The position numbers and the translations under genes were made by a program. Shown piece by piece: positions 10,218 through 57,520 of a stretch of 64,000 nucleotides of DNA. Within the stretch, counting starts at the first letter, position 1; each line of letters opens with the position of its first letter. Under the pieces are notes generated by a model. It was not told the DNA's origin. It did no database searches and saw only the letters and a list, made by a program, of their open reading frames with translations. Location: the NCBI GenBank assembly GCA_963971425.1, contig OZ020516.1, forward strand, positions 36,258,199 to 36,322,198, read 5' to 3'. The stretch comes from Bryoerythrophyllum caledonicum (Eukaryota > Streptophyta > Bryopsida > Pottiales > Pottiaceae).

Positions 10218-11389
10218 TTTCCTCAGCTTTCTTTGTTGGACCTAGCTTTTGGGGCATGACTGTAGGTTCACATCACATCCCTATTCAATGCACAATCAAC
10301 TCGAGTTGAGCTAATTTCAAGCTTTACGCCATAATTGCTGCATCATCAAAACAAAAATCTACTTTGTCTTCTTCACCTCATTAGAATCTGTATTCTATTG
10401 CTCGTCCCTCCCCTTTGAAGTTCATCTTTATGGCTTTAACCAGTATATGCATTTGACTGGCACCTACAAATGCCTATAATTGTTTGCGTTGCATCCAATG
10501 TTTCACAGTAATAACAAACTCAGGAAACAAGTGACGGGGTTGAAATCACGCTTGGGCTTGAAGTTTGTACCATGCTTCATGGACGAGAGGCGTGATTCAG
10601 ACGCTACAATCCCACCAAGGCCAACAAACAACATACATGAGGAAGGACTTGTATGTTCTACGATCAGTTTGGGCACCTAGAAAAACAGAAGAAAAAAATC
10701 CAGCTCGATGAGCTGAATATGCAAAAAACCACACGTCCCAAAAACCGTGTAGACAATGAAATGGAACCCACACGAAGGAGAAGAAAGTGCAATCAAGGTG
10801 TTGGAGGAACACGCAATGTTTAAAATAAGTTCAAACAAAGTTGAATATGGAGTAGAGATACACTTAAACAGTGCTAAGAAATGGGACCAACCTTGGAGGT
10901 ACTCCTTGCAATTCCATGGAAAGGAAGGAACTTGATCTCAACATTCTTAATGGTTCTAGCAGGCTGGCCGATGGTAGGTTAAGACATCACCTCCTCATAT
11001 GGCTTTTTTGCAGGAGGTAGTATTATAACAATAACAGATTGAAGTGCCTCATATTACAACACATGAACAAATGGAGTTAATTGGGAGTGTCCATAATCAG
11101 CTCTATTTGAGTTGATTATGCACATAGAGAAAAACACATAGCAATGCAATAGGACAAGGGGATAGTCATATCATGCTACGACGAGCCGTGGACAGGACCC
11201 CCTCCCGATCATGAAGAAGTAACTACTTTCCATTTGCACATGCCCTGTCAAGAACAAGGGACCCCAATCTGCGATGAGGCCGAAGAGGAGAAGGGGAAGC
11301 AACAATATTAAAGCGAGCTTTGGGTGGAGGGTTGTTCATTTCATCACCCTCAACCGGAGCCAATGACCATTCGATCGTGGTTTGAGCTA
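10218..11389. other. SAC 3' flank, no gene seen
   Basis: Follows the SAC stop codon at 10215-10217. It carries two copies of a palindromic motif (10291-10312, 11092-11123). The short frame at 10480-10680 has no recognisable domain and may be 3' UTR. No clear AATAAA signal could be tied to this gene. Confidence 0.5.
10291..10312 (-). repeat. Palindromic GCTCAA..TTGA..TGCA motif
   Basis: TGCACAATCAACTCGAGTTGAGCT carries the palindrome CAACTCGAGTTG. Related motifs, each followed by TTRTGCA or AATGCA on one side, occur at 11092, 14425, 15912, 15969, 16191, 21747, 21928, 29672 and 29798. This copy is inverted relative to most others. Confidence 0.55.
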
Positions 11390-11599
11390 CAGTGTCTAGC
11401 AAAACTGAGTCAAGTTCTGGTAATTCGAAATTCAATTACCAATGTAGGAAAACTGGCAATAGATTTGCACAAATCATAAGTTGTACAAGATAGCAATTTC
11501 AGTGGGCTACAATTTGATGCAAAAGAAAGTTCTTCTTACATTCATATGTACAAGAAAATTACCTTCGAAGGAAACTGTGTCTCTTGACTCAGTTTTGCA
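11390..11599. repeat. Left terminal region of Tc1 element with mirrored 17-bp motifs
   Basis: Outer motif 11390-11414 and inner motif 11583-11599 are in opposite orientation. The span of 210 bp equals that at the right end. In known IR/DR-type Tc1 elements such as Sleeping Beauty the two binding sites are direct repeats, so the mirrored layout is different. Confidence 0.75.
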
Positions 11600-11618
11600 T
11601 CATCAACCAAAAAACAAC

Positions 11619-12656
11619 TTAATATTTTGTCCACTTGCCTTTGGCAGCTAAAACAGCTTGGATTTGTCGTGGCATGCTTTCGTACAACCTCCTACACTCC
11701 TCTCATTTTATAGAAGCCCAACACTCCTCAATACGTTCTGACAACTCTAAAATTCCTTTTGGAGCACTTTCATACTGGTTTAGACGACGTTTCAGCCTTA
11801 CCCAAAGATGTTCAATTGGATTTAGGTCAGGAGATTGTGCAGGCCACTTAAGAACATCAAAGTTTTGTGATTTTAGCCATTGGCGAACACTTTTTGCTGT
11901 ATGTTTGGGATCATTGTCATGCTGAAATATCAAATTCGAAGGATCAAGATCATATGCCATCACCGTGTACATTAAATCTCTTTGCAAAATTTCTTTGTAC
12001 TGATGTTGATCCATTCTTCCTTCAATTCTACAAAACATGCCTGGGCCTTGAAATGTCCTACAACCCCACAACATGACAGAACCACCACCAAACTTTAAAG
12101 TTTGTGTCACTTCTTTTAAATCAAAAGACTGTTCATTGCGAATCCAACACCAACTGTGACCATCAGAGCAAAATCGATTTACCTTTGTCTCATCAGAGAA
12201 GATGATGTGCTCCCAATCATAAATGGTCCAATGTTCATGGCGCCTAGCAAATTCAAGTCGATCCTTGATGTGTCTCTGGTTCAATTTCGGTTTCTTCTGC
12301 TTGACTTTTGATCTCAGTCCTCCTGCACGTAAGACCCTTCTCACCGTATCAACACTTACAGTAACTTGGCATTCTTCACGTACATGCTGAGTAGCATATG
12401 TTGCAGTTTCAAATCCTCCTGATGTGACAGCTCTAATGCATGTTCTCTTTTGAGCATCTGTTAATACTTGTGGTCTACCACCACTACTAGTAGGAATATC
12501 AGATAATCTCTTCCTTCTAAGTCTTGCAACATGACTTTGAGACACCTGCAACTCACTTGCTACATCCCTTGTGGATCTACCAGCTTGCAACTTCACCAAA
12601 ATAGAGTTATCAAGGTCTGTACGAGCGCTTGCAGAAAGCTCCTTCAAGTACACCAT
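11619..12656 (-). pseudogene. DD34E Tc1-like transposase with one in-frame stop
   Basis: Cut-and-paste transposase. The start at 12656 (MVYLKELS) fits the family; the frame is open further upstream to 12704. Order: N-terminal paired-like helix-turn-helix (STRDVASELQVSQSHVARLRRK), GRPQVLT linker, second HTH (VSVDTVRRVLRAGGLRSK), then the DDE domain with FSDETKV (first Asp), FQHDNDPKHTAKS (second Asp) and SPDLNPIEHLW (Glu). Exactly 34 residues separate the second Asp and the Glu. The frame meets TGA at 11703-11705 (codon 318), but the same frame continues 27 more codons with a C-terminus typical of the family (ESMPRQIQAVL) to TAA at 11619. All catalytic residues are present, so the gene is one nonsense change from a full 345-codon frame. 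Confidence 0.9.
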
Positions 12657-12801
12657 GTTGAGTAATAAAATTATACTAACAATGTGCATGGAGTGTTGCA
12701 ACATTGTAGTTTAACATGCCCAAGCCAATTTGAGCTCATACATCCTCAATGCATTTGTGGCATGCAAAACACATGTCTTGGCTCATGAGTCCTCAATGGC
12801 A

Positions 12802-13010
12802 TGCAAAACTGAGTCAAGACATATGTTTGTACTTGAATTATTTTTTCTAATTATAGTCTATGTGTGTGTCAACATACATTCTATGACAGCTCATAAACTC
12901 CATGTTCTATCTCCTCTATTTTGAAAACCGCAATTTTATTCAATGAGTTGTCAGGAATGGTCAACCAAAGATATGTTTTCCTTAACTTGACTCAGTTTTG
13001 CAAGACACTG
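12802..13010. repeat. Right terminal region of Tc1 element with mirrored 17-bp motifs
   Basis: Inner motif 12802-12818 (TGCAAAACTGAGTCAAG) and outer motif 12986-13010 are inverted relative to each other. Just upstream, 12740-12815 contains a partial duplication of CCTCAATG..GCATGCAAAAC. Confidence 0.75.
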
Positions 13011-13012
13011 TA

Positions 13013-32329: not shown

Positions 32330-34784
32330 AATTATTAGTGAACTCGTTGTTGTTAGAGATGCTCTTGTAAAAGGAGTGATTGTACATATGATCCACTTTT
32401 ATCATGATTGTATCATTGTAATGATATGTTAGAATCTAAGGTGTTGTGATGTTATTGAAGTTGATGTATAAGAGGTTAGAGAATGTGTTGGATATACTTG
32501 ATTTGTGTTCCAAATGCATGACCAAATTTGATAAATTATATTATAAATTCTCCTCAATTGTTCAGGTCACAATGCTTAGAGAAATTTAAAATTATTTGAT
32601 AGTTTGACCTTCTATTAAAGTGGGTTTCTTTGATTGCAAAACTTGCACTACTTGAGCAATTTTTTGACCTATTATTGAAAGGCTTTGAAATTTAAATTGG
32701 AACATGCTCTTAAAGTCATAAATCACTATGAAAATTAGAGACCCACATCATTTAACAATATAAATATATTTAATGTGGACTTTGATAGTTGAATATCACA
32801 ATATTTTACGCTAAGTACAAATAAAAGTGTAGAATAACATGAAAAAGACTAAAGTCTTGACTTGCTTAGTTGTGAGGATGACAGAGCCAAGTACTTGTCC
32901 TTGAAATAAACGCCAACAATTGTAGAAAACCATAACATGCATTGGCTAGATAAAACTTCCCATTTGTGACGATGGCAAATATAAGGCTTAGGGATTCAAT
33001 TTATACTAGTGATAATTTTTAATTGTGGTCAACGTTAGCTTCCGAGTCTGAATTTTTGAGCTGGCATTTGAAGTCAAGATATTATATTGCTTTATCTTTA
33101 AAAGTATACAATTTTATGTAAGATTTTATGCAAATGTTGTACTATTCAAAGTGAAAGTCAAGTATGTTAGCCACACCAAAAATTCAGTTAGAGCGCATTT
33201 ATTTTCAGTACACTTATGGTTATATGATGCCACTCAAAATGATTTTTTTACCTGAAGCATATGTAGAAGTTCTAAAACATGAACACCAGTATCTTTACAA
33301 GAATTTGGGTAAAAAAAACACCTAGAGTAAAATTTAATATATAATAAAACCACACTAATTGGAATTAATGGTGTAGTTGAGAGGCCCTCTATGTATATTG
33401 GTGTATTTATCAAGAGTGTTGTGAAGACCTTTCCATCAACTTCATCAAAAACATCTAAAATTACTTCTAACTTAAAAGACCACCAAGCTCTTCCATACCT
33501 AATAAAGATGAATCTACTTGAGAGACCATGAAGATCTTTTGCATGTGATAGCTACTTTAAATTACATTGAGTAGAAAAAAATTATCTTTTAAATAAAAAG
33601 ACTAGTATCTCAATCAAATATTAATTACTTTAGAGAAAAAAATAATATAACAACAATAATCTATTTAAACATAACAAGTATTTTTGAATGTATTAGAAAG
33701 TTTGAAATGCATTTGTTGTGAGGTATCCTTGTTGTTTAAGACTTGTCATTACATTCCTTATGAATTAGTTTTTCAATGCATAAGTCATGTAAGGAAAGAC
33801 TACATTTTTTTCCAGAAAGCCTTATATTTCCAAGAGCCCCTTTGGAAAACTTTGAAGGTTTGAGCACGTTCCTATGGTGTAAATGAACATTACTAAAAGT
33901 TTTGTGAGAGTATATTTTTTCCTTAATTTGCAAATAATGAAAAAGTTATACAATTTAAAGAAGTTTCTTAGGGATGTTGGGGAGGCCAAGTAGGATACTA
34001 TAGAGCTGAATACTACTACTGTTGTTGAACTTGAAAAGTTTTAAAGTAAAGTTAAGTGTGCAATTTTTTGAGGCAGGTAGCGATAGACAAAAGTTCTTGG
34101 CAATCCTATTTTTTTTTGGTTAAAAATGCATAGAAAATAAGGTCTTTATTTTTAATCAATCTTCTTTTCTCTCAGCAAAAGGAGGCATAATGACCCTATC
34201 CACTGTTTGTATTTTAGATCCAACAATTACTTATTTATTAAAAATTTAGATTAATTTCCTATGTAAGTACTACTATCTATACCCCTAGTTATTGTAAGTC
34301 CGTTTTTCTTATCCTAAACACCTTCACTACTTGGCATTTTTGGCGTGCAATGACCTAACACACAATAGAAAGTAGATCTGTAAAATGCATGCAATGTATA
34401 GTGGAAAATTATGCTATTATCTTGAGTCCAAGTACGTTGGCCTTGTCCACACAGAGAAGAATAAACCATACTACACTCTTCAAATGCATGTATCTTATAA
34501 TTGAGTGTCTTTTTATAGTAGATAACTTCAAGTCCCTCAAGTACAAAATAGTAAAAGGTAGTTTTAATTAATCTTGTCATGAATCATCTTACAGAGGCAC
34601 TTTTGAGGTGATTATGGTGTAACAAAGTCTTCGGAATATAGGAGTCAAATCTGAAAAGGCTGTAGAAATGGTCGCCCTAAAAGCCAATTCCTAGACATGA
34701 GCTATGTGTGCAACCAAGCCTTAATCAAATTAGGTGGTCTCCTTCCATCAAAGCTCTGGAAAAAGCCACATCTACGACATTGTA
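32330..34784. other. AT-rich DNA, no gene seen
   Basis: No coding sequence supported. A short diverged piece of the SAC-intron MITE (TTCTAACTTAAAAGACCACCAAGCTCTTCCATA) lies at about 33463-33500. Confidence 0.55.
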
Positions 34785-35728
34785 TAGTACGTTGGCATGC
34801 AAATCGGCATTTTGCCGGTTGTTGGGATAGTGTCCTACACTGCTGCCAACTTTGACACCGTCCTGAGGGCTGAAAATTTGTTATTTTACCATGAAATTTT
34901 GGGGACAACCTCACCTCTATGTTGACAACATGCGTCTCAAATTTCAAGTCCAAGAGACTTATACATAAAAATTATGCAAGATTTACCAACATGGGTAGTT
35001 GTGAGAAAAGTTTCACAGCTGCCAACTTTGACACCCTCCCAAGGATTGAGGAAATTTTTTTTGCCATGAAATTTTTGGAGTGAAAACATCTTTATGTTGT
35101 TTACATGTGTGGAAAATTTCAAGTCCAAAAGATCCACACAAAAAATAATATTCCAAATCTACCAACATGTGTAGTTTTGCAAAACAAAGGGGAAAACCAT
35201 CTTACTACTTCCAACTTTGACACCCTACCTAGGGCTGAAAATTTGACATTTCAACATGAAATTTTTGGCACACAGTCATCTTTATGTTCATAACATGTGT
35301 GTAAAGTTTCAAGTCCAGGAAATGTATTCAAAAGAAAGATATTCAAAGTCTACTAACATGGGGGTTAGCTGTGAGAAAAGTTTCACAGCTGCCCACTTTG
35401 ACACCCTCCCAAGAATTCAAAAAAATATTTGTCCATGAAATTCTGGACATGAAATCACTTCCACGTTGATTAAAAGTGTGGAAGATCTCAAATCCAAAAG
35501 ATCCACACAAAAAAACATATTCCAAATCTACCAACATGTGTTGTTGTGAGAAACACAAGGGAAAGCTTATCACTACTTCCAACTTCAACACCCTTCCTAG
35601 GATTGAGTTTTGTTGATACGTAATGAAATTTTTGGCACAAGATCACCTCTATGTTGGTAACATGTAGGATAAATTTCAAAGCCAAAAGATGTATACAAAA
35701 AAAGTTATTCCATATCTACCAATGTGTG
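34785..35728. repeat. Element A left arm, five ~185-bp modules
   Basis: The landmark [C/A]AACTTTGACACC recurs near 34851, 35024, 35213, 35393 and 35578. The inner edge is marked by CCATATCTACCAATGTGT, shared with the right arm up to that point. Confidence 0.85.
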
Positions 35729-36317
35729 TAACTATGAGAAGCAATTTGAAGGGCATATTGAAAATGTTGAAATATCTTTGACACCTCGTGCTTCCTCATT
35801 GAACTTAGTCATGTGACTAAGCAACCAAACATAGATGCTTCTTGAAAAGATGAATTACATCTAAATGTAGAAGTGAAAAGTTGTTTTATGTAGAAGAATC
35901 TACTTGGTAATAAAGTGTGCATAATACACGTATGACGAGTTTTCTCCTCTAAATATCTATTGAGCACTATGTAAAAGGAATGTTGTGTGTGATTTGTGAT
36001 GTGATTTGTGATAGACTGAACGTTGAGATGATATTGAGAGCATAGTGTGTCATATTTTGATGCATGCGTGTTAATTCAGAATTGGCATACATGCCGAGTG
36101 ATTTAGAGCCAAGTGATTTTTATATATGGGCATATGGGCTGAGTGGATGTATGGGCTGAGTGTTATGTTGACTGATTTACATGATTCACATGCCATGGGC
36201 TAAGTGTTATGCTATTGGTCGATTTACTTCATGCACATGCCATGGGTTGAGTGTTATGTTGACTGCTTGAAAGTTTAATATTCTATCAGCATTATAAAAA
36301 GAGACCATGATGGCAAT

Positions 36318-37318
36318 TTAAGATGAAATTTGTGCTCACATTATAGGTTTGAGTGAGGGAGGAACTACATGAGTTCAAATTGCAGCCAATACTAGAGTTT
36401 CTATTAGAATAGTTTAGAGATTAGTAAAAACATTTAGAAAAGATGGAACTTACAAGCGCAAACCTTGCGGTAGAAGTCATGCTAAAAAGCTTAGTGACAG
36501 AGATGTTCATAGTATTACTCAAAAACTCATCGTCACTCCTAAACCTCAAAGATTGCCAGTGCATGTTCCACTCAAGTGTGTAAACGTACTATTCAAAGGG
36601 ACATACAAAAAAGTGGCATACATACTTGAATTGCAGTCAAATAAACCTTTCTTGGCACTTTTTCACATGTCTCAGCACTTGGCTTTTGCTCATAAATACC
36701 GTGGATGGAGTGTAGAAGAGTTGGAGCGTATTGTTTGGATAGATGCATCTACTTTTTAAATTTGAAAAAGTTTTTGGCAAATTCATGTTTGGAGAAGTGC
36801 ATGTGAGCGCTATTCATCATGTTGTATAATTCCTGTTTTAAAAAGTGGACGGACTTCTTTGATGATTTTGGGTGCATTTGTAGGAGGACAAATGTCAGAA
36901 CTTTTCTTTATGCCTAAAAGTTGATGTTCCACTAAGGATTTTATAGAAGAGGTTTATCATGGCAAATTGGTTCATTTTATGGATCAAGTTCTACAAGGAG
37001 TGCTTATGGAAGATGGCGCACCTGTCCATTGCAGCAAAATATGTAAAGAATGGAGACAAATTTGCCTTCTAAATTCTTGATAAGCTCAATTGGGTTGCAA
37101 ACTCTTCCAATCTCAATCCAATCGAGAACATCTGGAGGATGTTAAAAGATGTTGTGCAACATGGCAAAGAATGCCCTAGAAACCAAGATGTGTCGAAGGT
37201 AGTTTTTAAAAGAGAGCGGAAGTTAGTTAGTGGTATAGAGCTCCTTCAACTATGCCATTCTATGTCGTCTAGGTTACTAGCAGTGATTGACGCTAATGCA
37301 GGACATACACATTGGTAG
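36318..37318 (+). pseudogene. Decayed DD34E transposase of element A
   Basis: Plus-strand remnant. Helix-turn-helix part near 36340-36480 (IIGLSEGGTT, then YKRKPCGRSHAKKL), a first-Asp region near 36740 (WIDAST), a second-Asp region MEDGAPVHCSK near 37007, and SNLNPIENIWRML near 37105-37145, where the catalytic Glu codon GAG (37124-37126) is kept. At least five stops or frameshifts. The reading direction ends with TAG inside the right arm (GGHTHW then stop), so the stop codon is provided by the inverted repeat. Confidence 0.8.
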
Positions 37319-38249
37319 ATATGGAATAACTTTTTTTGTATACATCTTTTGGCTTTGAAATTTATCCTACATGTTACCAACATAGAGGTGATCTTGTGCC
37401 AAAAATTTCATTACGTATCAACAAAACTCAATCCTAGGAAGGGTGTTGAAGTTGGAAGTAGTGATAAGCTTTCCCTTGTGTTTCTCACAACAACACATGT
37501 TGGTAGATTTGGAATATGTTTTTTTGTGTGGATCTTTTGGATTTGAGATCTTCCACACTTTTAATCAACGTGGAAGTGATTTCATGTCCAGAATTTCATG
37601 GACAAATATTTTTTTGAATTCTTGGGAGGGTGTCAAAGTGGGCAGCTGTGAAACTTTTCTCACAGCTAACCCCCATGTTAGTAGACTTTGAATATCTTTC
37701 TTTTGAATACATTTCCTGGACTTGAAACTTTACACACATGTTATGAACATAAAGATGACTGTGTGCCAAAAATTTCATGTTGAAATGTCAAATTTTCAGC
37801 CCTAGGTAGGGTGTCAAAGTTGGAAGTAGTAAGATGGTTTTCCCCTTTGTTTTGCAAAACTACACATGTTGGTAGATTTGGAATATTATTTTTTGTGTGG
37901 ATCTTTTGGACTTGAAATTTTCCACACATGTAAACAACATAAAGATGTTTTCACTCCAAAAATTTCATGGCAAAAAAAATTTCCTCAATCCTTGGGAGGG
38001 TGTCAAAGTTGGCAGCTGTGAAACTTTTCTCACAACTACCCATGTTGGTAAATCTTGCATAATTTTTATGTATAAGTCTCTTGGACTTGAAATTTGAGAC
38101 GCATGTTGTCAACATAGAGGTGAGGTTGTCCCCAAAATTTCATGGTAAAATAACAAATTTTCAGCCCTCAGGACGGTGTCAAAGTTGGCAGCAGTGTAGG
38201 ACACTATCCCAACAACCGGCAAAATGCCAATTTGAATGCCACCCTCCTG
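37307..38249. repeat. Element A right arm
   Basis: Reverse complement of 34785-35728 with only scattered differences. For example, the 82-residue frame at 37443-37691 (+) equals that at 35343-35591 (-). Confidence 0.85.
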
Positions 38250-38480
38250 TACAGTCTTGTGAAATTTGTGGTGGATGTGCATTAGGAAGCTAAAGGATTT
38301 TTTGGAATTGTCCACTGCATACACTGCCAATTTCAACCACCATGTTTGTACATGCATACTATCACATGTCATGCTTCATGGCTTTTAATAATTTACAGCT
38401 CTGTTCACCTAATCATGTACTGGAGTCTAAAGTGCAGGAAAGGCCCAAGAGTACCAAAGCTTCACAGTTCACCTTATCAA

Positions 38481-41403: not shown

Positions 41404-43359
41404 TTAGACATGGCTAGGTGCACTTCGGAATGAGCCCAGAGCTTTGAAGTGGCCTGCCCTCAACACATACTGGTGATAAGCAGCTGCTAATGCCGCTCCC
41501 AAAAGTGGACCCACCCAGAAGATCCACTGCACCCACACATGTATCACATAAATTCCAGAAAATGGACCATCAAAACAAGTGCTCCACGGTCTCATGGCCA
41601 TATGCTAAAAACAGAGCAGGTCAATAACAGAACATGTCAAATGTGGTGAAATTAACTCACGTGATCATCCCAGGGCTTGCTGCGGTTGTAAATCACCGCT
41701 GCACCAAAGCTCCGGGCCGGGTTGATCCCAGTTCCAGTGATGGGAATGGTGGCCAAGTGCACCATGAACACGGCAAAGCCAATGGGAAGAGGTGCCAGCA
41801 CCTGCAGTGATAGCAGAAACCTGGTCAAAACTAGTAACACCTCTTTAAGATCTGTGCACGCCAGAGTCGAACAAACATGGAAGTCACACTTCAACGACAG
41901 GGTCGTCACGAGGCAAGAATATTGCCGACTGAGATTATAAGTAGACACATGATGATGATGATGATTGCTAGAGAACCTCAAGCTATGATCTGTAACCACG
42001 GTCCATGACCTCGCAGCTCAATTATAATATTTCTACAAACGAAAACGAAGCCCATTGATCAATCTCCAACTCACGAAAAGGAGACCATGAAAGGAGACTC
42101 GACTCATAGCAACTGCGGTTAAAAAGGCAAAACAGCGGCATCGACAGAAGAAGCCAGAGCTAGCACTTGCAATAAAACGATAACGTAAAACCGAGACGAG
42201 ACTTGAAACGCCAAACTAAGAGTTCATAGCTCAAACCAAGAAAATCTGATCTAGTCTAAGAAGCGAGTGATGCGATGAGCTTACAGGGACGTGGGAGTCG
42301 CGGGCGTTGCGCTTGGGATCGGTGGCGGAGAACACAGTGTAAACGAGCACGAATGTGCCGATGATCTCCGCGGCGAGCCCCGTTCCCAAGCTGTAGCCCG
42401 TCGCGACTGAGTTCGCGCCGCCCCCGTTGGCCATGTAGAACGAGTGCTGGAACCCCTTCACCAAGCCCGCGCCGCAGATGGCGCCCAGACACTGCGCCAC
42501 CATGTAGATCACCGCCCGCGGCAGTGAGATCTTCCGCGCCAGGAGCAGCCCGAACGTCACCGCCGGATTGATATGCCCACCTGCCGCGAATCATGCACAC
42601 AACAGCCGATCATTCAAAAGTACTAGCATGACCCAAAGCTGTTCCCAGACACCTGAGCACAGACAAAGCAAAGTGGGTGCTGAGATTATCGGTCTACACT
42701 TTTTACGTGTAGCATTAAGGTACAACTGCAACTACATCGATGCCGGAGATGCAAAGTTTGTGTTGGTCATGAGACTAGAGCCTAGGCTAGAGTTGGCAGT
42801 TAGAATGCGTGCCGGCGGTGAGTGTTGAGTTTGGGGGTGTACATGTTACATTGTCTGCGAGTGTGTCTATCTAGAAGGTTTTGAGCGTGTGTACAAGTTG
42901 TCGTTCTGTTCCCGAGATCAATGCCGGAGGTGCAAAGCGTGTGTTGATCATAACTCTAGACTGTAGACGTACTTGTGATCCAGGGATAGTTTTGAGGTGC
43001 ACAAGCTCCATATTCTGGGAGTGTGTGCTGATCAGTCTATCAAGCAGGTTCTGAGCCTGTGAAGAAGCTGATATTATACCTGAGATGCCGGCGGTGCAGT
43101 AGACGAGGACGAAGATCATCCCGCCGAACGCCCACGCGATGCCTAGGATCCCCACTCCAGCGCACCCCGGGTTGTTGCTGGCGCCGATGACGGTTGCCAC
43201 CGTGATATACAGGAATAGCAGCGTAGCTACAAACTCCGCGATCGCAGCGCGGTAGAAAGACCAGCGCCCGAACTCCGACGCGTCGATCAGCGGCGCCGGC
43301 GGCGGGTCCGTGTAGTCCTTCGACGGAAACCCGGGGTCCGTTGCCAAATCTTTCGCCAT
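41404..43359 (-). CDS. PIP2: Plasma-membrane aquaporin, PIP2 type (4 exons)
   Basis: Tetrameric water channel of the plasma membrane. Exons on the minus strand: 43359-43080, 42580-42285, 41801-41661, 41526-41404. They sum to 840 nt and 279 residues, normal for PIP2, and all introns are GT-AG. Both NPA boxes are present: [11 protein letters not shown] (Asn98) and [11 protein letters not shown] (Asn219). The water-specific selectivity filter is Phe78, His207, Thr216, Arg222. Gating residues known from spinach PIP2;1 are all kept: Asp26/Glu29, loop-B Ser112 (RKIS), loop-D His190, C-terminal Ser271 (ALGSFRS). Loop-A Cys66 is present. The short N-terminus and SFRS tail separate it from PIP1. Start chosen at the first ATG before [11 protein letters not shown]. 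Exons are much richer in GC than the surroundings. The gene looks intact. Confidence 0.96.
42740..43070. repeat. Diverged tandem duplication within aquaporin intron 1
   Basis: GCCGGAGATGCAAAG..TGTGTTG.TCAT at about 42741 and again at about 42922, followed in both by GAGTGTGT...ATC.AG.AGGTT.TGAGC.TGTG. The period is about 180 bp and the divergence strong. Confidence 0.55.
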
Positions 43360-43379
43360 CGCAACTCAAGTCAGACCTC

Positions 43380-46092: not shown

Positions 46093-47084
46093 TAAACTAG
46101 GTGACATTCAAATTGGCGTTTGGGCAATTCCAAGGATGGTGTCCCACACTGCTGCCAACTTTGACACCCTCCTCAAAGCTGAAAAATTGTTATTTTACCC
46201 TGAAATTTTGGAGACAACATCGCCTCTATGTTGAAAACATGAATACCAAATTTTAAGTCCAAAGGACTGATAAAACAAAAGATATTAAAGATTAACCACC
46301 ATGGGGTAGCTCTGAGAAAAGTTTCACAACTGCCAACTTTGACACCCTCCCAAGGATTGAGAAAAAAAAATTTCCCATGGAATTTTTGGAGTGAAAAAAT
46401 CTTAATTTTGATTACATGTGTGGAAAGTTTCAAGTCCAAAAAATGCACGAAAAAAATCACATCCCAAATCTACCAACATGTGTAGTTGTGAGAAACAAAG
46501 GGAAAAACCATTTAACTACTTCCAACTTTGGCACCCTCCCTAGGGCTAAGAGTTTGTTATTTCATCATGAAATTTTTGACACACGGCTATCTTTATGTTG
46601 ATAACATGTGGGAAAATTTTCAAGGCCAGAAAACGTATTCAAACGAAGATATTCAAAATCTACTAACATGGGGGTTAGCTGTGAGAAAAGTTTCACAGCT
46701 GCCCACTTTGACACCCTCCCAAGAATTCAAAAAAATGATTTGTCCAAGAAATTTTGGGTATGAAGTCATCTTCACGTCAAATACAAGTGAGGAAAATTTC
46801 AAATCCAAAAGATCTACACAAAAAAACATATACCAAGTCTACCAACATGTGTTGTTGTGAAAAACAAAGGGGAGAGCTTACCACTACTTCCAACTTCAAC
46901 ACCCTTCCTAGGATTGAGTTTTTGATGATACATGATGAAATTTTGGCCACAAGATCATGTCTATGATGGTGACATGTGAGATAGATTTTCAAAGCCAAAA
47001 GATGTACATACAAAAAAAATTATTCCATGTCTACCAATGTTTGTAACAATGAGAAACTATATTGAAGGGGCATATTGAGAATGT

Positions 47085-47258
47085 CACTACAAGAAAAGAG
47101 GGTGTTAATCAACATTTTGAAAAATTCCTAAGCAACGCCTAGGGGCTTGTTTTGTACATAAAACCACCCTACAATTGTTGCTTCTTTAAAATGCAAGCCC
47201 CTAGGCGTTGCTTAGGAATTTTTCAAAACCTTGGTAAACACCCCATTTTCTTGTAGTG
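47085..47258. mobile_element. CACTA-type MITE nested in element B
   Basis: 174 bp, starts CACTACAAGAAAAGAGGGTG and ends CACCCCATTTTCTTGTAGTG. Flanked by TGT (47082-47084 and 47259-47261), the 3-bp duplication typical of CACTA elements. Internal arms GAAAAATTCCTAAGCAACGC... and their reverse complement extend the stem to about 60 bp per side. Element A has the empty site (AAATGTTGAAATATC at about 35762-35776). Confidence 0.92.
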
Positions 47259-47989
47259 TGTCGAAATATCTTTGACACCTTGTGCTCCTTATGGATTTTA
47301 TTCATGTGACTGAGCAACCAAACATAAATGTTTTTTGAAAAGATCAATAAAATCTAAATGTAGAAGTGAAGAGTTGTTTCATGTAGAAGAATCCTCTTGG
47401 GTATAAGGTGTACATTATGTACGTATGACAAGTTTTCTCCTGCAAATCTCTTTTGAGCATTCTGTAAAGGAAATGTTGTGTGTGTTTTGTCATGTGATTT
47501 GTGATAGAGTGAATGTTGAGATGATATTCAGAGCAAAGAATGTCATATTGTGATGCATGAGTGTTAATTTAGATGTAGGGCATATGGGTTGAGTGGACAT
47601 ATTACATATGGGATAAGTGTTGCTGACTGATTGAGTGGACATATCACATATAGGCTGATTCATTGAGTGAACATATCATTTTTCTAGTTGAGTGTTGCTG
47701 ACTGGTCTACTGAGTGTGGACAAATCACATGTGGCATGAGTATGTCCAAGAGTATTTTCTGGACTTTACTGAATTGATGCACATGCATGGTGATCACCTA
47801 GTTTACTCAATTGATGCACATGCCACTATGATGCCAATGTGAATATTACGTTATTGACTAATTTACTTAGTGCACATGCCATGGGCTCAGTCCTTTGTGT
47901 TTACTGATCCATATTATCCAAATGCCATAGGTTAAGTGGTATATTGACTACTTGTTGATGAGCGTTTAGTATTGTATCAATATCATACA

Positions 47990-48979
47990 AAATAGTCCGA
48001 AATAGCAATTTCAAATGAAATTTGTGCTCGCATTATAGGTTTGAGTGAGGGAGGAAATACAAGTGTTCTGTTGCAGCCATTACCGGAGTTTCTGTTAGAA
48101 CAGTTCAAAGGTTAGTAAAAACGTTTAAAGAAAATGGAACTTAGAAGCGCAAACCTTGCGGCAGAAGTCATGCTAAAAAACTTAGTGAGAGAGATGTGCA
48201 TAGTATTGTGCGTTACGCAAAAACTCATTGTTGCTCCTCGGTCTCAGAGATTACTAGTATATGTCATACTCAAGTGTGTAGATGTACTATTCAAAGGGTA
48301 TACATAAAAGTGGTATTTTTAGTCAAATAGCAATCGAGAAACCTTTCTTGACACCCCGTCACATGACTCAGCGGTTAGCTTTTGCTCAGAAGTACCGTGG
48401 ATGGAATCCAGAAGAGTAGGAGCCTATTGTTGGGACAGATGAATCTACTTTTAAGATTGGAAATAGTTCTCAGAAAATTCATGCTTGGAAAAGTGCATAT
48501 GAGCGCTATTCATCAAGTTGTATAGTTCCTATTTTTAAAAGTGGACGGACATCTTTGATGATTTGGGGTGCATTTGCTGGAGGACAAAAGTTAGAACTTG
48601 TCTTGATGCCAAAAGTTGACGTTCTGCAAAGGATTTTGTGGAAGTGGTCTACAATGGCAAATTGATTCATTTCTTGGATAGAGTTCCACAAGGAGTGCTT
48701 ATGGAAGATGGCGCACCCGTCCATTGCAGCAAAACATGTGAAGAATGGAGACAAACCCACCAGCTCGAAAAGCTCAATTGGCCTGCAAACTCTCCCAATC
48801 TCAATCCAATCAAGAATGTCAGGAGGATGCTAAAAGATGTCGTGCAACATGGAAAGGAATTCCCTAGAATCTTAGAGTGGAATTTGGTCAGTGGTACAAA
48901 GCTCCTTCAACTATGTCATTCTATGCCCTCAAGGTTTCAAATAGTGATTGACACTAAAGGAGGACATACACATTGGTAG
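47990..48979 (+). pseudogene. Decayed DD34E transposase of element B, Glu changed to Lys
   Basis: N-terminal HTH remnant near 48010-48180 (ARIIGLSEGG, KRKPCGRSHAKKL). First-Asp block near 48438-48460. An open 113-codon frame 48638-48979 carries MEDGAPVHCSKTCEEW (second Asp, codon 48707-48709) and NLNPIKNVRRMLKD, where the catalytic Glu, 35 codons later, reads AAG (48812-48814). The stop TAG after GGHTHW lies in the right arm. Upstream frameshifts and stops make it inactive. It is more open at the C-terminus than copy A but lacks the catalytic Glu that A keeps. Confidence 0.82.
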
Positions 48980-49919
48980 ATATGGAAGAATTTATTTTTC
49001 TATATACATCTTTTGGCTTTGAAAATCTATCTCACATGTCACCATCATAGACATGATCTTGTGGCCAAAATTTCATCATGTATCAACAAAAACTCAATCC
49101 TAGGAAGGGTGTTGAAGTTGGAAGTAGTGGTAAGCTCTCCCCTTTGTTTTTCACAACAACACATGTTGGTAGACTTGGTATATGTTTTTTTGTGTAGATC
49201 TTTTGGATTTGAAATTTTCCTCACTTGTATTTGACGTGAAGATGACTTCATACCCAAAATTTCTTGGACAAATCATTTTTTTGAATTCTTGGGAGGGTGT
49301 CAAAGTGGGCAGCTGTGAAACTTTTCTCACAGCTAACCCCCATGTTAGTAGATTTTGAATATCTTCGTTTGAATACGTTTTCTGGCCTTGAAAATTTTCC
49401 CACATGTTATCAACATAAAGATAGCCGTGTGTCAAAAATTTCATGATGAAATAACAAACTCTTAGCCCTAGGGAGGGTGCCAAAGTTGGAAGTAGTTAAA
49501 TGGTTTTTCCCTTTGTTTCTCACAACTACACATGTTGGTAGATTTGGGATGTGATTTTTTTCGTGCATTTTTTGGACTTGAAACTTTCCACACATGTAAT
49601 CAAAATTAAGATTTTTTCACTCCAAAAATTCCATGGGAAATTTTTTTTTCTCAATCCTTGGGAGGGTGTCAAAGTTGGCAGTTGTGAAACTTTTCTCAGA
49701 GCTACCCCATGGTGGTTAATCTTTAATATCTTTTGTTTTATCAGTCCTTTGGACTTAAAATTTGGTATTCATGTTTTCAACATAGAGGCGATGTTGTCTC
49801 CAAAATTTCAGGGTAAAATAACAATTTTTCAGCTTTGAGGAGGGTGTCAAAGTTGGCAGCAGTGTGGGACACCATCCTTGGAATTGCCCAAACGCCAATT
49901 TGAATGTCACTCTACTATA

Positions 49920-56029: not shown

Positions 56030-57520
56030 AACAAGTTCAACTCAGAAAGGGATGGAGCTTTATCAACATTTTTCGAAGAATCATTGTGGTGTCGCTTTCT
56101 TGAGAAAAAAGTGCAAGATTCAAGACAAGCTGCAATCGTCAAAGACCATAAACAAAGAATATATGTATCAAATCTAAGCGCTTTCAAGAAAGAAAACAAA
56201 AGCATAGTAACGATGGTCTCAATCCCGGTATTCACAGGGAAAGAGTGAGAAGACCTGGAAAGAAATGAATCTGTCGAGCATTGCTCAGCCACCACTTATT
56301 ATAGCCGCAATTACACCTGTGGTGTCCAAGTTGATCCAAACCGTGTCTCCGGAAGTGAGTTCCGAGCAAATATCAAAAGATCCAGAAATCAGTCAGTTTA
56401 TTTTTGACATGCAAGATTTAAAGTTCTCCCTCTTACAAGATCAAAGCAGCAGTAGCCGCCCCAAAAGTCCAACTTCCAAGAGTTTACCCACTACACCCCG
56501 CAATGTACAATTTGTGACTTGTGAGGGATGTGGCAAGAAGGAGCACTTTAAAAGTGATTGTCCTGAGAGTAACAAAACATCACCACAATCGAGTGTACAC
56601 CTAACAGAAGTTAACTTGCTCCAACTTGCACAAGGCAAAAGAGTGAAAGAGACAGATCCCGAGTTGATGGCGATGAAACGTGGACATCCCCCGAAGGAAC
56701 ACCAGAAATCAACAAGAGAAGTCGGTAATCACAGAGACAAACACTCGTGGCGTGAAAAACGTGAGCGCTTGCGTCAAAGAAAAATTTGCATCAATGAAGT
56801 GAGTACTCAATACTGCATGACTTGGGCAAGTAAACGACGAACCTAACTATCGGCCAACTCGTGGCCAAGTGCCCTTCTCTCCAACAAGAACTTAGACAAG
56901 GAGTCAACACTTTGTATCACAAAGCCACTGACAAAGAGAAAACGGACTTCAAATCACCACAAGTAGAAGCCAGTGCCAACAAACACGAGATGGGCGGCTA
57001 CCTGATTGATGGAGGTGCTGTTGTTTATGTCATATGGACGTGGTTCATGAACAAAGTTGAGTTGACACCTAACAAATCATCGGACACGTTGCGCCTCAAA
57101 GTAGCAAACCAATCAGGAAAATCACACAAATACATGTTATGGTGAACGGCATCACTGTCAAGATCAACTTTCACGTAGTAGATATCTCGACAGATGAAGG
57201 AGGTTATCCGATGATATTAGGAAGACCATGGTTACGACAATTACGTGCCGTAAACTATTGGGAGAAAGGCAAAATGAAGATTGGATCAGCATGCTGCCAC
57301 GTCAACATTCAAGTAGATCCCAATCCATATTCAAGCTCTTCAAAAAGATTGTCAGAGGAGGATATGTATGTTTTTAATGCAATCTTAAAAGAAAATACTA
57401 CACCGTTGACAACCAAGGAATTATTGAAGGCGGAGAAGGCTTCTATTCAACAGGCTCCAAAGGTAGAAAAGGGGGCGGCAAATGAAGCAGCCAAGGCATT
57501 GAAGCTTGCGGCAAAGTAGG
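56030..57520 (+). pseudogene. Ty3-type gag and protease remnant
   Basis: Gag part: frames around 56030-56250 and 56265-56846. The latter has a CCHC zinc knuckle CEGCGKKEHFKSDC (CX2CX4HX4C, 56519-56560) and a basic tail. Protease part: 56861-57145 contains YLIDGGAVVYVI, which corresponds to the active-site D[ST]G loop in degenerate form. After a frameshift near 57140, 57139-57519 contains PMILGRPWLRQLRAVNYWEK, the conserved flap/ILGRPWL block. The tail is Ala/Lys-rich. Stops and shifts throughout. No reverse transcriptase or integrase follows; unrelated coding DNA begins at about 57690. Confidence 0.75.

Follow-up and report, generated by a model that had tools for sequence, protein, structure and literature searches.

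Within the window, a 64,000-nucleotide stretch of contig OZ020516.1 from the moss Bryoerythrophyllum caledonicum, lies an element (E1) that raises the question of how a Tc1 transposase came to be enclosed by long, modular inverted arms, and how these arms have stayed nearly identical in a copy whose transposase is decayed. The original prediction placed TA-bounded inverted arms of 943 bp at 34785..38249, and these coordinates proved exact. A BLAST comparison of the window with itself returned the arm pair as a 947-nt match at 99.4% identity (E = 0), and an ungapped alignment covers 954 nt at 99% (34774-35727 with 37307-38260). As shown in Table 1, E1 is complete, with a length of 3465 bp and TA on either side. 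Its left and right arm tips differ at 6 of the 30 outermost bases, with 0 differences from base 22 to base 943. The Tc1-type transposase remnant expected between the arms was found there by tblastn and belongs to the DD34E family. It has six in-frame stops in the first matched stretch and one frame change, and a Pfam search of the broken frame, with stops entered as X, found no domain at E 0.001. Its stop codon (TAG, 37316-37318) lies within the right arm, which begins at 37307, again as predicted.

Table 1. Features of the two arm-bearing elements, E1 and E2, in window coordinates.
Feature	Position	Strand	Remarks
Left TA target-site duplication of E1	34783..34784	.	context TTG-TA; usual target TGTACA
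E1 left arm	34785..35727	+	terminus of CAGTAGGGTGACATTCAAATTGG type, several bases mutated here
E1 arm module 1	34841..35016	+	176 bp, module-head match
E1 arm module 2	35017..35205	+	189 bp, module-head match
E1 arm module 3	35206..35386	+	181 bp, module-head match
E1 arm module 4	35387..35573	+	187 bp, module-head match
E1 arm module 5	35574..35728	+	truncated, 155 bp, module-head match
E1 unique core	35728..37306	+	
E1 decayed DD34E Tc1 transposase	36310..37318	+	tblastn with intact family member; last codons and TAG inside right arm
E1 right arm	37307..38249	-	bases 22-943 same as in left arm
Right TA target-site duplication of E1	38250..38251	.	
Left TA of E2	46093..46094	.	
E2 left arm	46095..47040	+	
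E2 decayed transposase	48002..48979	+	stops and frame changes; match 48002-48976 (tblastn)
E2 right arm	48968..49917	-	
Right TA of E2	49918..49919	.	joined flanks match uninterrupted repeat elsewhere

Each arm had been described as five modules of ~185 bp. Five module heads are present, near the starts given in Table 1 and with spacings of 176, 189, 181, 187 and then 155 bp; the uniform size did not hold, as the modules range from 155 to 189 bp and stand in an alternating dimer register, for which TRF reports a period of 369 bp and 2.5 copies. Because repeats within the arm match each other with BLAST E-values from 4e-9 for single modules down to 9e-90 for dimers, the repetition is not a chance match. 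Module-to-module identity was judged by these E-values; a shuffled control with lax gap costs (mean 72%) did not discriminate.

Comparison of E1 with the 46-50 kb part of the window, suggested with the original prediction, revealed a second element, E2 (46095-49917, 3823 bp), which lies 8 kb from E1 in the same orientation and has the same anatomy. The two elements are ∼86% identical in the arms and ∼80-85% in the core, and the left and right arms of E2 align over 919 nt at 100% (rounded). When the 500-bp flanks of E2 were joined with one TA, they aligned across the junction to sequence at locus L016 (729 nt, 68.7%) and locus L032 (480 nt, 67.3%). With 200-bp flanks, the two best local stretches had 73% identity over 225 nt, beginning 28 nt to the left of the TA, and 79% over 111 nt, beginning just 3 nt to its left; both have a single TA at the junction. 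The matches at L016 and L032 likely represent an empty site in an old repeat, at a modest identity of 67-79%; a lone TA at such a site is what CAGT-type termini and TA duplication would lead one to expect. Elsewhere in the window, we noted an exon-like aquaporin stretch with a MIP domain (42874-43365, minus strand; of plasma-membrane type from reading), one of the signs of a plant host, and open frames resembling gag-protease remnants of a Ty3-type retrotransposon (56211-57516, plus strand; labelled from reading).

We then analyzed the family at the level of the genome (437 Mb, 894 contigs), searching with the arm and counting paired arms as had been suggested. The search gave at least 54 matches, with 40 scored of 3330 first-look candidates. 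Mapping of arms and cores in 31 genomic stretches around arm matches yielded 24 element entries with both ends bounded, including E1 and E2. TA flanks both sides in 21 of these 24 paired elements, and L010, L037 and L039 each have one altered side. TA-flanked boundaries, whose lack in other copies would have told against the original prediction, are thus a recurrent property, to which the likely single-TA empty site of E2 can be added. The exact 27-nt terminus TACAGTAGGG... occurs 279 times in the genome (131 on the plus and 148 on the minus strand), compared to 0 for the reversed control. Of the 279 termini, 100 were listed, and among these, 33 pairs of neighbours stand within 6 kb of each other. 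All but one of these pairs converge (32, at 3.25-3.85 kb), and the remaining one is a head-to-head junction. Elements of the family measure 3.5-3.8 kb. We also observed several copies with unequal, truncated or chimeric arms, and an RdRP gene at locus L010 whose named matches, among the 120 listed, reach 59% at most and come mainly from flowering plants.

A genome-wide search with the transposase, in which 120 places were scored of 4402 first-look candidates, found all 120 at 94-100% identity and nearly full length; by our own count, 73 of the 120 have no stop. Linkage was assessed, within the predicted arm regions only, for every tenth row from row 2 to row 92 of these 120 listed transposases (n = 10). 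A left arm accompanies all ten, with its tip in view in nine and the tenth lying inside an arm whose exact terminus is listed. The typical right tip was found for eight, with just 78 nt of arm after the tip at L049; of the other two, L057 has a diverged arm match (75%) and L051 no arm match. Together with the 32 of 33 close termini that converge, these counts speak against arms and transposase being unlinked. They also contradict a reading in which two unrelated repeats were brought together by insertion of an ordinary short-ended Tc1 into a tandemly repeated palindrome or satellite. The two other Tc1 elements of the genome are indeed short-ended, and arm-only copies such as L039 occur, but independently placed transposases are flanked by arms, the outer ends of the arms carry TA and a CAGT-type terminus, and the transposase stop codon is inside the arm. 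We give this reading hardly any credence.

To characterize the enzyme, we turned to copy L034, whose uninterrupted 335-codon frame contains HTH_23, HTH_Tnp_Tc3_2 and DDE_3, the last two above the Pfam cut-off. A bipartite helix-turn-helix DNA-binding region is present, and 34 residues separate the second D from the E. The six Pfam families found for the transposase are HTH and DDE_3 types; the THAP type of the P superfamily was not among them. Its solved relatives are Sleeping Beauty (E 5e-28) and Tc3, and the best match with a named organism is a Physcomitrium Tc1-like protein at 43%, with name-less matches up to 97%. By sequence, this is an ordinary Tc1 (DD34E) transposase. Six intact frames were present among the fetched copies. 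The dN/dS ratio was 0.30 for L034 against a diverged L026 frame. Two further distant pairs gave 0.50 and 0.41, and four close pairs, which differ by few changes, ranged from 0.27 to 1.02, one of them being near 1. Because intact frames exist, all 120 scored places are 94-100% identical and 73 of the 120 have no stop, we read the family as apparently autonomous and recently active. It appears to be large and young and to have been amplified recently, and we infer cut-and-paste mobility only from its dispersed young copies and one likely empty site.

The element ends also define a target. Position -3 is G in 58 of 61 ends and position -4 is T in 51 of 61, which gives TGTACA as the target. The possibility that the TG before the TA is part of the element was rejected, as end-to-end copies have one TA between ACTG and CAGT, an arrangement that fits TGTACA as the target. 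Since insertion at TGTACA leaves TGTACAGT at the edges, each copy would offer two new preferred targets, and copy edges may in this way serve as fresh sites for insertions by kin. Head-to-head junctions of the form CACCCTAYTG-TA-CARTAGGGTG occur 11 times in the genome (22 rows, the pattern being self-complementary), and 20 junctions carry GGGTAYTG-TA, the end typical of a related arm-bearing family that we call B; the control was 0 for both. Elements of the arm-bearing family (A) adjoin A-type ends at L022, L026 and L036, and B elements lie beside A elements at L012 (a few bases off), L019, L033, L035 and L038. Family B, as seen at these five loci, is an arm-only foldback family with other termini, mostly of CAGTACCC type. 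Its arms are ∼72-82% alike to those of family A and frequently unequal, one being long and the other short, and no transposase match was found between B arms at the fetched loci.

We next compared the arms with one another. When 43 arms were placed in a tree, 18 of 20 elements had their left and right arms paired as exclusive sisters. L016 and L027 departed from this pattern, both arms of L027 being identical to the left arm of L016. No other left arm in the comparison comes closer than 9.9% divergence to that of E1, L009, L017 or L037, and within each of these four elements the two arms differ inside by 0 to 0.8%. For a comparison of tip and body we used 14 equal-armed elements, after excluding 10 of the 24 pairs as truncated, chimeric or unequal. 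Left-right mismatches numbered 19 of 420 at bases 1-30, 29 of 12180 at bases 31-900 and 6 of 559 at bases 901-940 (pooled tip versus body, Fisher p = 3e-16, with cut-points set after inspection). Divergence between elements changes little along the arm (8.4% at the tips, 4-9% inside, with extremes of 8.7% and 4.1%). With one 30-base cut throughout, picked after looking at the data, individual tip and body counts were 6/30 and 0/870 in E1 (p = 8e-10), 7/30 and 6/750 in L037 (p = 9e-8), 4/30 and 3/870 in L009 (p = 3e-5), 3/30 and 2/870 in L026 (p = 3e-4) and 2/30 and 1/870 in E2 (p = 0.003). No tip excess was seen in L017 (0/30 and 3/750) or L021 (0/30 and 9/870; p = 1 for both). In an independent young sample of seven pairs, covering the outer 325 bp only, the excess was modest (7/210 and 19/2065, p = 0.007).

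Taken together, these data point to arm-to-arm gene conversion as the process that homogenizes a copy's arms, because the arms are sisters in 18 of 20 elements, yet their outermost ∼30 bp differ in several old copies. Conversion tracts that need homology on both sides would leave U-shaped mismatches, as in the pooled data from the 14 elements, whereas a fresh-insertion model predicts even divergence along the arm. L016 and L027 are near-identical and lie in opposite orientation ∼30 kb apart on one contig (C11:838-875 kb). Their alignment of ∼3.1 kb contains 96 gap columns and a single mismatch; beyond it, divergence rises to 10-16% inside the right arm of L016. This pair, with its chimeric right arm in L016, possibly reflects an inversion or ectopic exchange, and L016 would seem to be a snapshot of exchange.

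Near-identical arms could alternatively be inherited, if the source of each recent insertion already had identical arms and the tips of the copy were hypermutable through abortive transposase cuts and error-prone repair, with no conversion involved. Most young copies do have near-identical arms, and the tips stand out only modestly in the systematic young sample and not at all in L017 and L021. Against this, E1, L009, L017 and L037 stand at least 9.9% from the other left arms compared and have decayed transposases, and still their arm bodies differ by just 0 to 0.8%. Moreover, differences at the tip extend as far as base 40 in L009 and base 81 in L037, past any cut site; the inner arm edge is also in excess (6/559); and young copies have changes common to both arms and absent from other copies, seen as branches in the tree. 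We regard recent insertion as the unlikely account of the two. It is less probable still that assembly or polishing produced the near-identity: inverted repeats are a known difficulty, but a collapse would have to spare the differing tips and erase ∼10% inner divergence at several independent loci, and the arms of L016 and L019 are still clearly different (tree distances 0.149 and 0.069).

How the arms arose may be read from other Tc1 elements of the same genome. One, at 11388-13012 of the window, has 36-nt TIRs, and its 16-nt terminal site recurs in inverted orientation within each end, 183-184 bp inward. We note that its minus-strand transposase frame is almost full (11706-12710 open, with a stop near the C end) and that it is unrelated to the arm-bearing family. 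Its classification as an IR/DR element was considered and dropped, the inner sites being inverted, not direct. A third Tc1-type element, assigned by reading its sequence, has 28-bp perfect TIRs and an open 344-aa frame (L032:5441-6896); it directly adjoins an arm-bearing element. Because these two Tc1 elements have 28-36-bp ends, the arms are a derived, Foldback-like trait. The 183-184-bp spacing of the inner sites in the window element matches the module period of E1 (176-189 bp). When the inverted terminal 48 bp were aligned to the modules, the match fell on the module head in four of five. Between 16 and 162 of 500 shuffles attained the score of a single module, and 16 of 500 attained the summed score, which is suggestive of module heads being inverted copies of the terminus. 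In direct orientation, the arrangement expected of the IR/DR group of Tc1 elements, the scores for modules 1-5 were reached by 32, 192, 37, 115 and 146 of 500 shuffles, and their sum by 35 of 500. Since the shuffles reach these sums in 16 of 500 (inverted) and 35 of 500 (direct) cases, the proposal of multiple binding sites in the arms draws on analogy. Our preferred hypothesis is that a terminal unit containing an inverted inner site was multiplied in tandem to give the arms.

We conclude that E1 is probably an inactivated copy from a plant Tc1 (DD34E) family that is large, autonomous and recently amplified, and whose arms grew in tandem and are kept alike by arm-to-arm conversion. The family element, ∼3.7 kb long and TA-flanked, encodes a DD34E transposase of 335 codons, bears inverted arms of ∼940 bp, each built of five tandem modules, and strongly prefers TGTACA as its target. 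In the mechanism that we propose, mobilization would follow ordinary Tc1 chemistry, with the transposase cutting at TA|CAGT, and tandem duplication of a ∼185-bp subterminal unit would have built the arms. Gene conversion between the arms, or template switching, would keep those of each copy near-identical while tending to miss the outermost ∼30 bp, and the multiple modules would probably act as extra transposase binding sites, as reported for Galileo. A broader reading, to which we grant slightly less than an even chance, is that this plant Tc1 family has kilobase self-repairing palindrome arms. Conversion would then operate in resident copies, dead ones included, so that the arms are decoupled from ordinary decay and only the outermost ∼30 bp record insertion age, and a TGTACA preference matching the family's own boundaries (ACTG-TA-CAGT) would seed head-to-head clusters.

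These findings bear on what drives the repeated evolution of long modular arms in unrelated transposon superfamilies. One genome here offers a natural comparison, with 73 of 120 listed transposase frames uninterrupted, 279 exact ends and two short-ended Tc1 elements. The contrast between tip and body makes intra-element gene conversion measurable per copy, and arms that apparently copy from each other offer a natural setting in which to test the self-repair of inverted DNA.

As to placement, the family belongs to Tc1: DDE_3, DD34E, a helix-turn-helix, TA duplication and CAGT-type termini are all present. Foldback (FB) elements of Drosophila have long inverted arms with tandem repeats and a target duplication of about 9 bp. 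Long inverted repeats of tandem modules are found here too, so the architecture is that of Foldback; the ∼9-bp duplication is absent, with TA only in 21 of 24 paired elements, and the elements are not members of the Foldback family. The inference of a plant Tc1 lineage with foldback architecture therefore stands in respect of architecture, linkage and TA, which recur, and falls in respect of Foldback family membership. FB and Tetris are, to our knowledge, not Tc1 elements, and differ from the present family in its TA duplication and DD34E enzyme. Tc4 and Tc6 of Caenorhabditis elegans are fold-back elements with TIRs of roughly 770 bp, present as non-autonomous copies or using another transposase group. 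TCp3.2 is a Tc1/mariner-type element with long TIRs, a single defective element in a baculovirus, and we know of no modular arms in it.

In open-access full-text literature, as judged by titles and the beginnings of abstracts, we found no plant Tc1 with arms of such length, and no paper joining TGTACA with Tc1 and target site. PpTc1 and PpTc2 of the moss Physcomitrium resemble the present family in their DD34E transposase of ∼335-338 aa, CAGT termini, TA duplication and recent amplification in a plant, and differ in having 33-bp TIRs and a length of 1.6-1.7 kb, compared to ∼940-bp modular arms and 3.5-3.8 kb here (Liu and Yang 2014, PMC4054914). TIR-TIR recombination and conversion are described for bacterial IS elements in PMC3004938, which cites TIR recombination in one Tc1-type element, TCp3.2; the likeness to our family lies in its Tc1 type and in the recombination observed between its own inverted repeats. 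Long repetitive arms are already known from Galileo, Tetris and Foldback; tandem-module arms, which had been called a hallmark of Foldback, do characterize its architecture and occur in other superfamilies (Galileo, Tetris) as well. Tetris of Drosophila has long inverted arms with ∼220-bp tandem repeats, for which homogenization has been suggested (PMC4079207). The closest parallel in behaviour, from what these sources describe, is Galileo of Drosophila, which shares long, internally repetitive TIRs, chimeric and arm-only copies, and proposed TIR recombination or conversion (PMC3573991), and has transposase sites within its repeats (PMC3688188). Its transposase differs, being of the P superfamily with a THAP domain, and its few copies yielded no active enzyme (PMC3688188). 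Exchange in Galileo is discussed among copies (PMC3573991), whereas here it would act mainly between the two arms of one copy, and this arm-to-arm conversion signal within copies is new.
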